Source of the DNA: Novipirellula galeiformis
GTDB lineage: Bacteria; Planctomycetota; Planctomycetia; Pirellulales; Pirellulaceae
DNA length: 64,000 bases
Assembly (NCBI RefSeq): GCF_007860095.1
Contig: NZ_SJPT01000011.1
Coordinates: 1 to 64,000, forward strand
Direction: 5' to 3'
Shown here piece after piece: positions 1 through 21,687 of this stretch. A model generated the notes under the pieces. It did not search any database, had not been told where the DNA came from, and was given only the letters and a program-made list of their open reading frames with translations. The position numbers and the translations under genes are program-made. Every line of letters begins with the position of its first letter. Position 1 is the stretch's first letter.

Positions 1-566
1 CTCGAAGGTGGATCGGTCTGTGTTTACGCCACGCTCTGGCGAGCGTAGCTACCTTCGCCAGAAGGTGGGCCGGTCTGTGCTTACGCCACGCTCTGGCAAG
101 CGTAGCTACCTTCGCTCGAAGGTGGATCGGTCTGTGTTTACGCCACGCTCTGGCGAGCGTAGCTACCTTCGCCAGAAGGTGGGCCGGTCTGTGCTCACGC
201 CACGCTCTGGCGAGCGTAGCTACCTCCGCTAGAAGGTGGATCGGTCTGTGTTTACGCCACGCTCTGGCGAACGTAGCTACCTTCGCCAGAAGGTGGACCG
301 GTCTGTGTTTACGCCACACTCTGGCGAGCGTAGCTACCTTCGCCAGAAGGTGGATCGGTCTGTGCTCACGCCACACTCTGGCGAGCGTAGCTACCTTCGC
401 CAGAAGGTGGATCGGTCTGTGCTTACGCCACGCTCTGGCGAGCGTAGCTACCTCCGCTAGAAAGGTGGGCCGGTCTGTGTTTACGCCACACTCTGGCGAG
501 CGTAGCTACCTTCGCTAGAAGGTGGATCGGTCTGTGCTCACGCCACGCTCTGGCGAGCGTAGCTAC
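1..566. repeat. 57-bp tandem palindromic repeat array
   Basis: About ten near-identical 57-bp units run from the window edge to about 566, so the array may extend further left. Each unit holds two short stems, ACGCT/AGCGT around CTGGCG and CCTTC/GAAGG around GCCA, joined by TAGCTA. A one-base insertion breaks strict periodicity near 460. The unit is the reverse complement of the repeats at 1308-1445 and 2737-3004. Short open frames across it (for example 8-232 and 236-460) are a by-product of the 57-bp period, which is 19 codons, and are not convincing genes. The array ends next to the sigma factor stop codon at 577. Confidence 0.95.
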
Positions 567-576
567 AACCGAGCAC

Positions 577-1185
577 TCAAATCTGCTCCAGCACCGACCG
601 CAATCGTTCCAGCGCTCGCACATACCGGATGCTGGCGGCTTTCGGCGTGATGCCAAGTGCCATGGCAACTTCTTGGTTGGTCAGTTCTTCAAAATGACGC
701 AGCGCAACGACTTCGCGATCCATCTCACTCATCTCACTCAGTGCCGACCGCACCTCCGCAATCAACTCAACCTTCACAGCCGCTTGGCTCGGTGAAGTCA
801 GATGAGCGATGAAACGTTGCGAAAGACACAGCGACGTGTTGCCCCATGGATTTTCTTCGTGCGGATTGGATTCACGCAACGTCGAACGTGATTCGGTGGC
901 CAGATGTCGGCGATGAACACGGCTAAGCGTCTGTCCGGTGACGAGTCGTAGCCAAAGAAATAGTGAAGGAAAATCGCCCTCGACATAGTGACCGAGCCGT
1001 TTTTCGGCATCTAAATAAACGTCCTGCAATACATCATCCGCATCAACACGAGCTCGAATCTGATCGCTGAGCCGGAAATGGATGATCTGCCACAACCGCG
1101 GGCGATGGACGGAAAACGCATCGGCAAACAGCGACAAATCGCCAAGCTTAAGTTGCTGTTCGATGTTTCCGACGTTGGGATTCAC
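577..1185 (-). CDS. ECF-type RNA polymerase sigma factor
   Basis: This is a sigma-70 family extracytoplasmic-function sigma factor of about 202 residues, which would direct RNA polymerase to a small regulon. A region-2 segment (DADDVLQDVYLDAEKRL) contacts core and the -10 element, and a C-terminal region 4 helix-turn-helix (REVVALRHFEELTNQEVA, then ALGITPKAASIRY) would read the -35. The frame stays open to 1425, but everything upstream of 1185 is repeat-derived sequence. I place the start at the GTG at 1185, just before the conserved region begins, with a weak TAGG upstream. It is divergent from the sulfatase at 1279, and the 57-bp repeats at 1308-1445 lie in its upstream region. No anti-sigma gene is adjacent. 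The family call is firm, the start less so. Confidence 0.85.
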   Translation of the reverse strand: MNPNVGNIEQQLKLGDLSLFADAFSVHRPRLWQIIHFRLSDQIRARVDADDVLQDVYLDAEKRLGHYVEGDFPSLFLWLRLVTGQTLSRVHRRHLATESRSTLRESNPHEENPWGNTSLCLSQRFIAHLTSPSQAAVKVELIAEVRSALSEMSEMDREVVALRHFEELTNQEVAMALGITPKAASIRYVRALERLRSVLEQI

Positions 1186-1278
1186 AAAAAAATGCCTATT
1201 GGCTGTAGATGTCGGCAATCGCTGGGGTTTCTGACCATGAGGTAATTGCACAATCCATTGTATCCAAGGCCGATTTTG

Positions 1279-4200
1279 ATGAAACCGACTCTCGCATTGC
1301 ACTTCATCCACCGTCTGGCAATGGTAGCTGCGCTCGCCAGAGCGTGGGACGAGCACAGGTTCCACCACCGTCTGGCGACGGTAGCTACGCTCGCCAGAGC
1401 GTGGATTGCGAACAAAACGGGCCACCGTCTGGCGACGGTAGCTACGGAAGGTCGTTACTGCATAAATGGGGTGCTAGTGCTCGCGGCCTTGCTGTCCATG
1501 CAGAGTCTTTGTGTTGGCGACGATGTCGATGCGCAAAAGCGGAAGAACATTGTGATCTTGTTAGCCGATGACCTTGGCTGGGGTGACGTTGGGTTCCACG
1601 GAGGAGCCGCCGACACGCCAAACATTGATTCGCTGGCCAAAGACGGCGTCCGACTCAATCGCTTCTACGCCTATCCGGCGTGTAGCCCGGCTCGTGCTGC
1701 GATGTTGACCGGACGATTCCCGCACCGCTATGGAATCTCTGGCCCCGTGCGACCTCGCGACGAAGGCTTGCCAACGAGCGAACCGTTGCTGCCCGCTGCG
1801 TTTCAAAAAGCTGGTTATGAAACCAGCCTGATCGGTAAGTGGCACCTGGGGCTCGCAGGTGATCAATCGCATCCCATCCGCCGAGGATTCGATCAATTCT
1901 ATGGCTTTCTCGATGCTTCGATCGACTACTACGAACACACTGCAAGTCGAGGGAAGATTGATTGGCAACGGGGTGGGACCACCCTCGATGAGAAAGGCTA
2001 CTCAACCGACTTGTTGGCCGATGAAGCAGTGCGTCAAATCAGAAACCGACGCTCACGTAAACCGTACTGCATCGTCGTTTCCTTCAACGCGCCGCACTCG
2101 CCCTTTCAAGCTCCGCAGAACTTGATCGCAAAATACCAAGGCAAATTGAGCGCAACGGAAGCGACCTACGCGGCAATGGTCGATTCGATGGACCAAGGCA
2201 TCGGACGCATTCTTGACGCGATCGACGACAGGCAACTTCGCCAAGATACGATCGTCGTTTTTGCATCCGATAACGGTGCGGCACGAGCCGGAACAAACAA
2301 ACCGTTTCGCGGCCAGAAGCGGCAAGTCTACGAGGGCGGCATTCATGTGCCTTGCGTCATCCGTGCTCCTGGTTTGTTGAAAGCCGGAAGCGAAAATGAA
2401 CAGCTCTGCGCGATTCACGATCTGTTCCCCACGCTCGCCGCAGCCACCGGAGTTTCAATCTCATCGGTGAAACCGCTCGACGGAGATAGTCTCTGGTCAC
2501 AATTGGTCAGTGGCAAGGCAACTTCGCGAACCATCGTGATTGCCGAGAACGACCACGCCATCATTCACGACGATTGGAAGTTGATTCAATTTGCCGACGG
2601 GGGCACGGAGCTGTTCAATTTGCGAAGGGATCCAACGGAGGAAAGAAACGTCGCTGGCTCGGAGGCGAAGATTGCCTCGCAGTTGTTGTCCAAGTTGATT
2701 CAGTACCAAGTGATTGTCCAAACGGATGGTCCCGTACCACCGTCTGGCGACGGTAGCTACGCTGGCCAGAGCGTGGGACGCACACAACCGGCACCACCGT
2801 CTGGCGACGGTAGCTACGCTGGCCAGAGTGCGGGGCGCACACAACCGGCACCACCGTCTGGCGACGGTAGCTACGCTGGCCAGAGCGTGGGACGCACACA
2901 ACCGGCACCACCGTCTGGCGACGGTAGCTACGCTGGCCAGAGCGTGGGACGCACACAACTGGCACCACCGTCTGGCGACAGTAGCTACGCTCGCCAGAGT
3001 GTGGTTTCTGGCCGACACACGCTTGCCGTCACAACCGCCAAGGAACTACAAGAAGGAGAATCGCTTGCAACGGCCACGCTCCGAGGCGACGCAAAGTACG
3101 GGGTGCTGGGCGATCCGCGAGTGGAATCCAGTGGGCGTGGCATACGCTTGCTTTCCAGCGAAGATGTCGACGGCAACGGCACACTTGCGGGCGAGGCGTC
3201 GCTTACCAGTGACCAAGTATCCGCCGACCAGCGTTGGTATCGCTTCTACATCTCGGGGCTCGCTCAAGACAACTTCGCCGTTGACCAGGACGAGCTGTAT
3301 TTGAAAGTCGAGTTTTTCCAAAAGCGCGGCACCGATTCACTGGACCTGATCAAAGAACGCATCTACCCGCAAGTTTTGCAGGAACGTAAGGATTTCTTCG
3401 ACAAAGACACCAACGAAAGCCTTGGACACTCGATTTGGCGAACCTACGCGATGGACTTCCGAACCCCGTTCGCAGAAGTCGATCGGCTGAAGCTGAGCGT
3501 CGGTTTTGCCAATGGGAAAGCTCAGACAGGGAAATCCGAGTTCTGGGTCAATTCGATGGACATCAAACCCATTGACGTACCCGCTAACTACGAAGCCGCC
3601 AAACCGACCCTGCAAGACTTCCCACAACCGGATGAATCGAAGCTGATTGCCCTTGGAGGTCGCTGGTACTTCAATCCGAAAGCTGGACAGCGCCAAGCAC
3701 CGAAGCAGTTCGACTACACCAACGCAGATCAGTTGCTCTACAAAACGGATCGTTACCACGCTCCGTTCGCTGGCAACATGAGTTCGTGGTTGCGTGCCGG
3801 TTACCTCGATTTCAACGGTGACGAAGTCACGAAGGACCAGTACAAGCCCTACGCTGTCATCGTCACGTTCACTGACGAACATCTGGTCATGCGAAGTCGG
3901 AACTTGCCAAACCACCCGACCGCGACCTTCCCTGATCGCTGGCGAATGTTGGACGGCAACCCGTCGTACATCAAAGAGCAGGCGAATACTTGGCACATTC
4001 CGTTGGAGCCGAAGCGTGATCCCAATGCGATCGCGATGGACGAAAAGAACTCCAACCAAGCTTTACCAATGGGCGCGATTGGTGTCGCAACCAACGGCGT
4101 GATCTTCTTCAATCCCTTCGATCACATCTTTGAAACCGATGCGGTTTGGCGACTCGATCGTTGTTGCGGCCACCCCAGCCCTCGACAACAGTACCACTAT

Positions 4201-4500
4201 CACAAGTATCCCGTTTGCGTGAAGACGCCTTGGAGCGACGAAGGGCAATCGCATTCGGGCGTGATTGGATTCGCATTCGACGGATTCCCCGTCTACGGGC
4301 CATACGAATCAAAAGGCTTGCTCGCCAAAGACGATACGAAGAACCCGCTCAACGACTTCAATCTTCACACAGACCCCGATCGTGGTCCCCACTATCACGT
4401 CACGCCGGGCGAATACCCCCACATCATCGGAGGATACTGGGGACAGATTGACACGAACAATCGTCCGGGACGAGGGAACGGGGCGGGAAATCAGAGATAG
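1279..4500 (+). CDS. exported sulfatase fused to YHYH-domain region, with embedded repeats
   Basis: This long frame gives a protein of about 1073 residues. Residues ~87-475 form an arylsulfatase-type domain that would hydrolyse sulfate esters outside the cytoplasm. It has the ADDLGWGD metal-binding start and a CSPAR signature whose Cys (~135) would be matured to formylglycine. Residues ~487-576 are five 19-residue copies of a 57-bp repeat. The remainder ends in a YHYH domain (YHYH at ~972-975, then GFAFDGFPVYGPYE). The ATG at 1279 has AAGG eight bases upstream and starts MKPTLALHF. Three more repeat copies (residues ~11-56) separate this from the hydrophobic stretch GVLVLAALLSMQSL, so a signal peptide appears interrupted. 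GTG codons at 1471 and 1477 are alternative starts after the repeats. It may be two ancestral genes joined at the repeat block. Confidence 0.85.
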   Translation: MKPTLALHFIHRLAMVAALARAWDEHRFHHRLATVATLARAWIANKTGHRLATVATEGRYCINGVLVLAALLSMQSLCVGDDVDAQKRKNIVILLADDLGWGDVGFHGGAADTPNIDSLAKDGVRLNRFYAYPACSPARAAMLTGRFPHRYGISGPVRPRDEGLPTSEPLLPAAFQKAGYETSLIGKWHLGLAGDQSHPIRRGFDQFYGFLDASIDYYEHTASRGKIDWQRGGTTLDEKGYSTDLLADEAVRQIRNRRSRKPYCIVVSFNAPHSPFQAPQNLIAKYQGKLSATEATYAAMVDSMDQGIGRILDAIDDRQLRQDTIVVFASDNGAARAGTNKPFRGQKRQVYEGGIHVPCVIRAPGLLKAGSENEQLCAIHDLFPTLAAATGVSISSVKPLDGDSLWSQLVSGKATSRTIVIAENDHAIIHDDWKLIQFADGGTELFNLRRDPTEERNVAGSEAKIASQLLSKLIQYQVIVQTDGPVPPSGDGSYAGQSVGRTQPAPPSGDGSYAGQSAGRTQPAPPSGDGSYAGQSVGRTQPAPPSGDGSYAGQSVGRTQLAPPSGDSSYARQSVVSGRHTLAVTTAKELQEGESLATATLRGDAKYGVLGDPRVESSGRGIRLLSSEDVDGNGTLAGEASLTSDQVSADQRWYRFYISGLAQDNFAVDQDELYLKVEFFQKRGTDSLDLIKERIYPQVLQERKDFFDKDTNESLGHSIWRTYAMDFRTPFAEVDRLKLSVGFANGKAQTGKSEFWVNSMDIKPIDVPANYEAAKPTLQDFPQPDESKLIALGGRWYFNPKAGQRQAPKQFDYTNADQLLYKTDRYHAPFAGNMSSWLRAGYLDFNGDEVTKDQYKPYAVIVTFTDEHLVMRSRNLPNHPTATFPDRWRMLDGNPSYIKEQANTWHIPLEPKRDPNAIAMDEKNSNQALPMGAIGVATNGVIFFNPFDHIFETDAVWRLDRCCGHPSPRQQYHYHKYPVCVKTPWSDEGQSHSGVIGFAFDGFPVYGPYESKGLLAKDDTKNPLNDFNLHTDPDRGPHYHVTPGEYPHIIGGYWGQIDTNNRPGRGNGAGNQR
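1308..1445. repeat. 57-bp palindromic repeat, three copies inside the sulfatase 5' coding region
   Basis: Copies begin with CCACCG at 1308, 1365 and 1422, exactly 57 bp apart; the third is cut short after TAGCTAC. Each full copy pairs a CCGTC/GACGG stem with a CGCTC/GAGCG stem. In the sulfatase frame they read HRLATVATLARAW, an amphipathic frame different from that used at 2737-3004. They also lie upstream of the divergent sigma factor. Confidence 0.95.
2737..3004. repeat. 57-bp palindromic repeat, five in-frame copies between sulfatase and YHYH regions
   Basis: Copies start at 2737, 2794, 2851, 2908 and 2965, exactly 57 bp (19 codons) apart. They read as PPSGDGSYAGQSVGRTQPA in the gene's frame, a hydrophilic Gly/Ser/Pro linker. 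They sit precisely between the end of the sulfatase domain and the downstream region, and copy number can change without a frameshift. Confidence 0.95.
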
Positions 4501-21507: not shown

Positions 21508-21580
21508 AAGGCCTTCCAGACGCAAGCGAGAACAAGAAACAACGGGCTCGTGGGTGTCAGGATAGCAGTCGAGGCGAGGA

Positions 21581-21687
21581 GTGAGGAGTGAGGAGTGAGG
21601 AGTGAGGAGTGAGGAGTGAGGAGTGAGGAGTGAGGAGTGAGGAGTGAGGAGTGAGGAGTGAGGAGTGAGGAGTGAGGAGTGAGGAGT
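21581..21687. repeat. 7-bp tandem repeat (GTGAGGA), about 15 copies
   Basis: The heptamer GTGAGGA repeats about 15 times without visible variation, ending about 74 bases upstream of the pyrC start. A period of seven and perfect identity suggest active slippage. It lies between SMUG1 and pyrC and does not interrupt either. Confidence 0.97.

Follow-up and report, generated by a model that had tools for sequence, protein, structure and literature searches.

The stretch of DNA analysed here (the window) comprises 64,000 nucleotides, corresponding to positions 1-64000 of contig C11 of the genome studied (G000, 7.4 Mb). Near its beginning lies a gene encoding a sulfatase-YHYH fusion protein, whose frame is open from 1246 to 4500 (1084 aa). 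The features of this region are the following:

1-566, minus strand: intergenic REP1 array next to the sigma-factor gene, built from a sister variant of the 57-bp unit; TRF counted 9.9 units at 4-566, one of them 58 bp long
577-1186, minus strand: sigma-70 family (ECF-like) gene (Sigma70_r4_2, 3.1e-9), start approximate, divergent from the sulfatase gene
1279-4500, plus strand: sulfatase-YHYH fusion gene with two intragenic arrays
1308-1446, plus strand: array at site 1, with 2.4 units and three REP palindromes, of which the first is mutated; read in the HRLATVATLARAW frame
2736-3004, plus strand: array at site 2, with 4.7 units and five REP palindromes, located in the linker between the sulfatase and YHYH domains and read in the frame PPSGDGSYA(G/R)QSV
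2737-2776, plus strand: single inverted REP pair of 40 bp overlapping on GTAGCTAC, resembling the single-copy orthologues
2753-2817, plus strand: one REPIN of 65 bp (GTAGCTAC-hairpin, 17-nt spacer, hairpin-GTAGCTAC), whose last 8 bp also start the next REPIN
3005-3060, plus strand: linker remnant after the array (VSGRHTLAVT...QEGE), common to the single-copy orthologue G065 and, in altered form, G234

TRF reported a period of 57 bp for all three arrays. A preliminary description of this DNA had placed a 57-bp repeat twice within the sulfatase gene, and both arrays were recovered within one open frame. The two readings proposed for them were also confirmed, with HRLATVATLARAW at site 1 and PPSGDGSYAGQSVGRTQPA at site 2.

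The 57-bp repeat is a REPIN, composed of paired GTAG-tagged REP hairpins. Each hairpin consists of GTAG, an 8-bp stem and a GCCA loop, and each unit contains two inverted hairpins overlapping on the self-complementary GTAGCTAC, together with a 17-nt spacer. The period is 57 bp because adjacent 65-bp REPINs have the 8-bp GTAGCTAC in common (65-8); in the cluster of arrays described below, 41 of the 44 exact GTAGCTAC to GTAGCTAC intervals measured 57 bp. Folding was better than that of shuffled sequences for single hairpins (z -2.6 and -2.7) and for the 40-nt pair (z -2.8), and not clearly better for two whole 57-nt units (z -0.30 and -1.75). At the two variable stem pairs, Watson-Crick pairing was observed in 100% and 96% of the copies outside the cluster (73 copies, 13 distinct sequences), compared with 52% and 38% after shuffling, and in 90% and 86% of 69 copies inside it, compared with 47% and 40%; only copies with 6 or more of the 8 positions paired had been retained, a filter that somewhat favours pairing. 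Covariation in two relatives, G001 (28 copies) and G029 (89 copies), was similar to that outside the cluster. The stem structure of this hairpin, termed REP1, is under selection.

REP1 hairpins were found 308 times in G000 at up to 3 mismatches, compared with none for a reversed-pattern control, and the repeat is therefore not due to chance. In addition to this high copy number and the compensatory stem changes, other features of GTAG REPs and REPINs were observed, including the GTAG tag next to a short-stem hairpin, inverted pairs with a defined spacer, and the same REP on the flanks of a RAYT (REP-associated tyrosine transposase) gene. The repeat belongs to this well-known, probably mobile class of small hairpins, which are normally intergenic in bacteria.

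With the same pattern, 93 of the 308 hairpins fall in locus L013 (on contig C4) and in positions 1-3100 of the window, while no REP1 hairpin was found in the window beyond 3100. A tandem repeat of another kind, the heptamer GAGGAGT in 16 perfect copies, was observed at 21576-21687. The 57-bp repeat is not confined to the sulfatase gene. Its arrays continue on C4, where one lies within a kinase gene and others flank the RAYT gene on either side:

L013 6602-6967: array within the kinase gene, splitting the Pkinase profile into two stretches
L013 8665-8078, minus strand (C4:830450-831037): RAYT ORF with an ATG start, between two 57-bp arrays

The array at 1-566 had been described as a matching array in inverted orientation. 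Its orientation is indeed opposite to that of the sulfatase arrays, but it is a sister variant and not the same unit, with CCTTC arms and a 17-nt spacer of other sequence. Its spacers showed mean identities of 0.37-0.49 to all arrays except the one at the end of C4 (0.89), and the sister-array spacers are 0.89 identical between C4 and C11, compared with 0.89 and 0.88 within each. From these values, the array at 1-566 appears to continue the array at the C4 end.

In G001 and G002, the gene order is sulfatase, sigma factor, EF-hand and kinase, and the sigma-factor orthologue adjoins the sulfatase in G008 as well. With the join of C4 and C11 inferred from synteny, G000 very probably has first the kinase gene with its internal array, followed by an array, the RAYT gene, a second array, the redoxin-like gene, the EF-hand gene and an array at the contig end; across the contig ends, the order very probably resumes with array, sigma factor and sulfatase (two arrays). 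The redoxin-like gene, located between the RAYT-side array and the EF-hand gene, shows weak likeness to redoxin. Arrays are present inside genes at three places, namely the sulfatase signal peptide, the sulfatase inter-domain linker and the middle of the kinase domain. Between the two RAYT-flanking arrays, spacer identity (0.91) is about as high as within each of them (0.89 and 0.95). Site 1 has one measurable spacer, which is closest to the RAYT-flanking arrays (0.75-0.81, compared with 0.30 for shuffles). Copying among all sites would go beyond the data, because the spacers of site 2 and of the EF-hand/C11 arrays reach an identity of only 0.36-0.38 to the RAYT-array spacers, slightly more than shuffles do.

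The kinase array and site 2 share the Gly/Ser/Pro-rich reading PPSGDGSYA(R/G)QSV, and site 1 is read in the HRLATVATLARAW frame. Because GTAGCTAC gives TAG in one frame per strand, the kinase unit has four of its six frames open. Every one of the 11 genic units measured, and 11 of 33 intergenic units, had an open PPSGDGSYA frame; for the HRLATVATLARAW frame, the counts were 11/11 and 30/33, respectively. Units departing from 57 bp were found in 0/11 genic and 3/33 intergenic cases (56 and 58 bp), counts that are too few for this difference to be read as selection. A length that is a multiple of the codon had been suggested to ease entry into genes. We rejected tuning of the unit length to codons, since intergenic arrays have the same 57-bp period, which is set by the REPIN length. 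Other REP arrays in G000 have periods of 32/64, 40, 139 and 308 bp. The last of these lies at L025 653-1696 (G000:C7, reaching the contig end) and contains 3.4 copies of 308-bp tandem units with one REP1 hairpin each.

The ATG at 1279 is the likely start of the sulfatase, favoured because the MKPTLA start is conserved in G188 and G234; for the same reason, we set aside the reading that the array at site 1 lies only in the 5' UTR. The start may alternatively lie downstream of the site 1 array. Read from 1279, site 1 sits in the signal peptide after MKPTLALHFI. The hydrophobic helix described for this site falls in the stretched front of the signal peptide, and the hydrophobic part of the signal peptide comes 3' of the array.

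To place these arrays in context, 20 sulfatase orthologues were collected from 241 family genomes (E ≤ 1e-60). Inside the protein, REP1 (≤3 mismatches) and a second hairpin, REP2 (≤4 mismatches), are absent from 13 of the 20; G001 is counted among these 13, its one REP1-like match lying 5' of the probable start, within the open frame. Likewise, the kinase array is missing from both orthologues examined (G001 and G002), so that repeat-free orthologues exist for both genes. In the linker, REP1 was found as one pair in G065 and G182, as a decayed pair in G234 and in five copies in G000, and the sequence SGRHTLAVT after the array is common to G000 and G065 and altered in G234. The preliminary description had named non-repeat sequence in orthologues and a broken frame as arguments against its reading; orthologues do have a non-repeat linker at site 2, yet the frame here is open. 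The REP1-bearing sulfatases do not form one clade in the tree, and with carriers scattered in this way loss, exchange or repeated insertion has to be allowed for.

In G008, G199 and G187, REP2 (GTAGCGGAAGTCGTCAAGACTTTCG and near variants), another GTAG REP, lies in frame in the sulfatase gene. Its copies are more numerous in G008 than in its congener G199, and three REP2 sites comprise 52, 62 and 55 residues in G008 compared with 40, 28 and 29 in G199. Within the G008 gene, same-strand REP2 neighbours are separated by 36, 39, 45, 45 and 33 bp, each a whole number of codons, and downstream of the gene the spacing is 41 and 41 bp. Copy number differs by whole codons, in agreement with the earlier claim. 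REP2 arrays in G001 have a period of about 110 bp.

Identity by codon position revealed that third positions are the most variable in 7 of 7 sulfatase pairs (0.905/0.927/0.708 for G000-G234), and the G000 branch, at 0.088 compared with 0.091 and 0.10 for the nearest rows, is not a long one; the sulfatase therefore looks constrained. Additionally, window positions 3055-4497 are 90-92% identical to five other genera (G146, G181, G188, G221 and G234) and 78-79% identical to the own genus (G001 and G002), and the tree agrees. This mismatch of the C-terminal half with the genus likely reflects horizontal exchange of the locus or a problem of genus assignment.

An assembly artefact, or pseudogenes, could in principle produce such arrays. 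Both C4 and C11 end in the sister array, so that copy number is uncertain there, and the listed genome contamination is 4.14%. Both genes are nevertheless open throughout and align with their orthologues over the domains, and the sulfatase branch is not long. Scores typical of coding sequence were obtained on both sides of site 2 and of the kinase array, and the REP pair of the single-copy orthologues occupies the same position. We therefore regard this explanation as hardly credible.

Host selection was also considered, in which a flexible linker is favoured and the repeat is kept for a useful peptide. The single Gly/Ser/Pro-rich frame used by the kinase array and site 2, open in 10/10 units compared with 11/33 intergenic ones, would fit such a role, as would the variability of third codon positions and the filling of the same linker by two REP families. 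In contrast, 13 of 20 orthologues manage without the repeat, the REP1 and REP2 fillers have no common peptide, closely similar units are also intergenic, and site 1 is read in another frame. Selection for the peptide is quite improbable on this balance.

The frequency of intragenic copies was assessed with a codon-usage score of both in-frame flanks, a genic site requiring 3 bits on each side; a copy lying only a few codons from an ORF end is unable to reach this score. Scores were 14.7 for the kinase array and 25.0 and 12.2 for site 2, while site 1 scored 1.2 on the left, where only 9 codons are available, and 11.1 on the right. One intergenic array beside the RAYT gene reached 3.2 because of a short frame on the antisense strand, with 7 and 23 codons on the flanks. 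Among 50 REP1 clusters of G000 outside the cluster, sampled from listings and short of all 308 sites, one passed (L026, 8.5 bits), a borderline case 16 codons from an ORF end. None passed among the first 31 clusters listed for G029 or among 22 of G001, the latter picked mostly for arrays and so biased. At the sulfatase gene of G008, 3 of 5 clusters passed. In these samples, REP1 was mostly extragenic, as in GTAG REPs and REPINs (49/50, 31/31 and 22/22 clusters failing the coding test). The selfish entry into genes proposed earlier is supported in that arrays lie in frame in two genes with a RAYT gene adjoining, but such in-frame colonisation is local and exceptional in the clusters examined, and a general route into genes is not supported.

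The RAYT protein (P0001) contains DHLH and YIARNPERA, its putative HUH motif and catalytic Tyr region. The roles of these motifs are described in passages of PMC6006769 and PMC3733652. At a threshold of 0.001, the sole NCBIfam match was NF047646 (E 2.4e-10, 40.5 bits, below the curated cut-off of 80). No Pfam family was found at 0.1, and searches against PDB and PHROGs returned no matches. The sole relative returned by the named-genome collection, from Rhodopirellula sp. JC639, is 76% identical and has one REP1 on each side.

Including JC639, 10 distinct loci of this RAYT subfamily were compared (nine others, with a broken G002 locus counted once). REP1 or REP2 was found in the available flanks of 4 of the 10 (L033, L072, L074 and L092) and was absent from the flanks of 6, some of which are ended by contig ends. 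Other Y1-type transposase loci were not favoured as the mobiliser, as none of 43 had REP1 or REP2 in the available flanks; these loci derive from three sets (27, 3 and 13 weaker ones), with duplicates removed by hand. At L092 (G001:C10), the RAYT gene has tandem REP2 arrays with a period of about 110 bp on both sides, a second case of arrays next to RAYT. Near L076 and L086, of the same subfamily, other GTAG hairpin types were observed (GTAGCTGGGCCCGC... and GTAGCCACGTCCACTACG...), which suggests that RAYT and REP may change partners.

Across 60 relatives, REP1 abundance and close RAYT relatives track each other weakly. G012 and G013 have RAYT and no REP1, G024 has 165 REP1 matches without a close RAYT, and G008 shows in-gene expansion though it too is without a close RAYT. 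In G029, 721 REP1 sites (≤2 mismatches) were found in 8.2 Mb, likewise without a close RAYT, which makes this genome a good one for seeking another mobiliser.

The reading we prefer, with a probability of roughly 0.7, is that REPINs entered genes near a resident RAYT and grew in place by whole units. REPINs of the REP1 family would have moved into sites close to this IS200/IS605-like Y1 HUH transposase. The sulfatase linker probably contained a single REP pair at first, as in the single-copy orthologues, and then gained whole units; each further REPIN would add 57 bp, the foot palindrome GTAGCTAC being common to neighbours. In-gene inserts would have persisted where the protein accepts a flexible insert and the frame is kept, the putatively tolerant places being the front of the signal peptide, the inter-domain linker and the middle of the kinase domain profile. 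The anatomy of the units, their covariation and copy number, the adjacent RAYT gene, the empty and single-copy orthologues and the second REP family in the same gene of other genomes are direct observations. That this RAYT moved the REPINs is suggested by its position between arrays, flexibility presumably explains why the inserts were accepted, and growth may have occurred by RAYT insertion at GTAGCTAC, by slippage or by recombination.

Pure slippage would have hairpin DNA duplicating in tandem at replication and spreading by inter-array recombination, with RAYT as a bystander. This is possible, though on the doubtful side. It agrees with spacers that are more alike within arrays (0.78-0.95) than most are between arrays, with the many periods of REP arrays in G000 and G001 given above, and with the poor correlation of RAYT and REP numbers. 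On its own, however, it leaves unexplained the scattered single and paired hairpins genome-wide, the REPs around the JC639 RAYT and the enrichment of REPs in the flanks of this RAYT subfamily. Once a first insertion had occurred, slippage could well account for further growth.

A more specific form of RAYT-driven growth, which we offer tentatively and consider rather unlikely, is that RAYT inserts REPINs into the GTAGCTAC foot of existing REPs, so that a 19-codon ratchet makes protein repeats and the sulfatase-YHYH linker is a recurrent cradle for them. A tolerated REP pair would become a ratchet because the foot stops one of three frames per strand and each step equals 19 codons. If true, two different REP families would have come to occupy this linker in separate lineages.

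Whichever way the REPINs grew, the locus offers a concrete route from mobile DNA to a protein linker, with a second REP family doing likewise in the same gene. To our knowledge, the mode of REPIN multiplication and the part of RAYT in REPIN growth are poorly settled. Rare excision reads are reported in one paper. A single protein site here allows array size, RAYT adjacency and orthologues with no, one and five copies to be compared, and the growth step, target and protein cost thereby become measurable. Intragenic REPs and tandem REPINs are already published. In the main texts of the top-ranked literature results, we found no REPs in planctomycete sulfatase or kinase genes, no RAYT-side array entering two neighbouring genes, no empty/one/five-copy series at one protein site and no two REP families using one gene.

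The 2011 paper on REPINs and RAYTs is reportedly by Bertels and Rainey. In passages of PMC3116915 (2011), REPINs are moved by RAYTs, highly ordered tandem REP arrays are reported, and the distance analysis concerns extragenic copies. The present repeat resembles the REPINs described there in having a REP doublet as its unit, a high copy number and RAYT genes in the genome, whereas its neighbouring REPINs have the 8-bp GTAGCTAC in common and its arrays cross coding regions in frame. The review PMC10969869, citing Ogata, describes in part Rickettsia palindromic elements of ~150 bp lying in frame in many unrelated genes. Palindromes are likewise in frame inside unrelated genes here, although the tag is GTAG and not of the CGTC type; according to passages of PMC3733652, Rickettsia elements are CGTC-tagged and CGTC repeats are not associated with transposase genes. 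The same source (Di Nocera et al. 2013), in the parts concerned, describes GTAG REPs inside ORFs, with more than half of the inserts being dimers or groups encoding 20-30 aa, intragenic clusters of up to 43-82 aa, and RAYT genes with REPs on their flanks; it lists R. baltica as having several families of GTAG REPs and numerous genes for tyrosine transposases. The locus analysed here shares with these cases REPs in ORFs and a RAYT gene flanked by REPs, and goes beyond what those parts report with the sulfatase and kinase cases, the graded orthologue series and a RAYT-side array running into genes.
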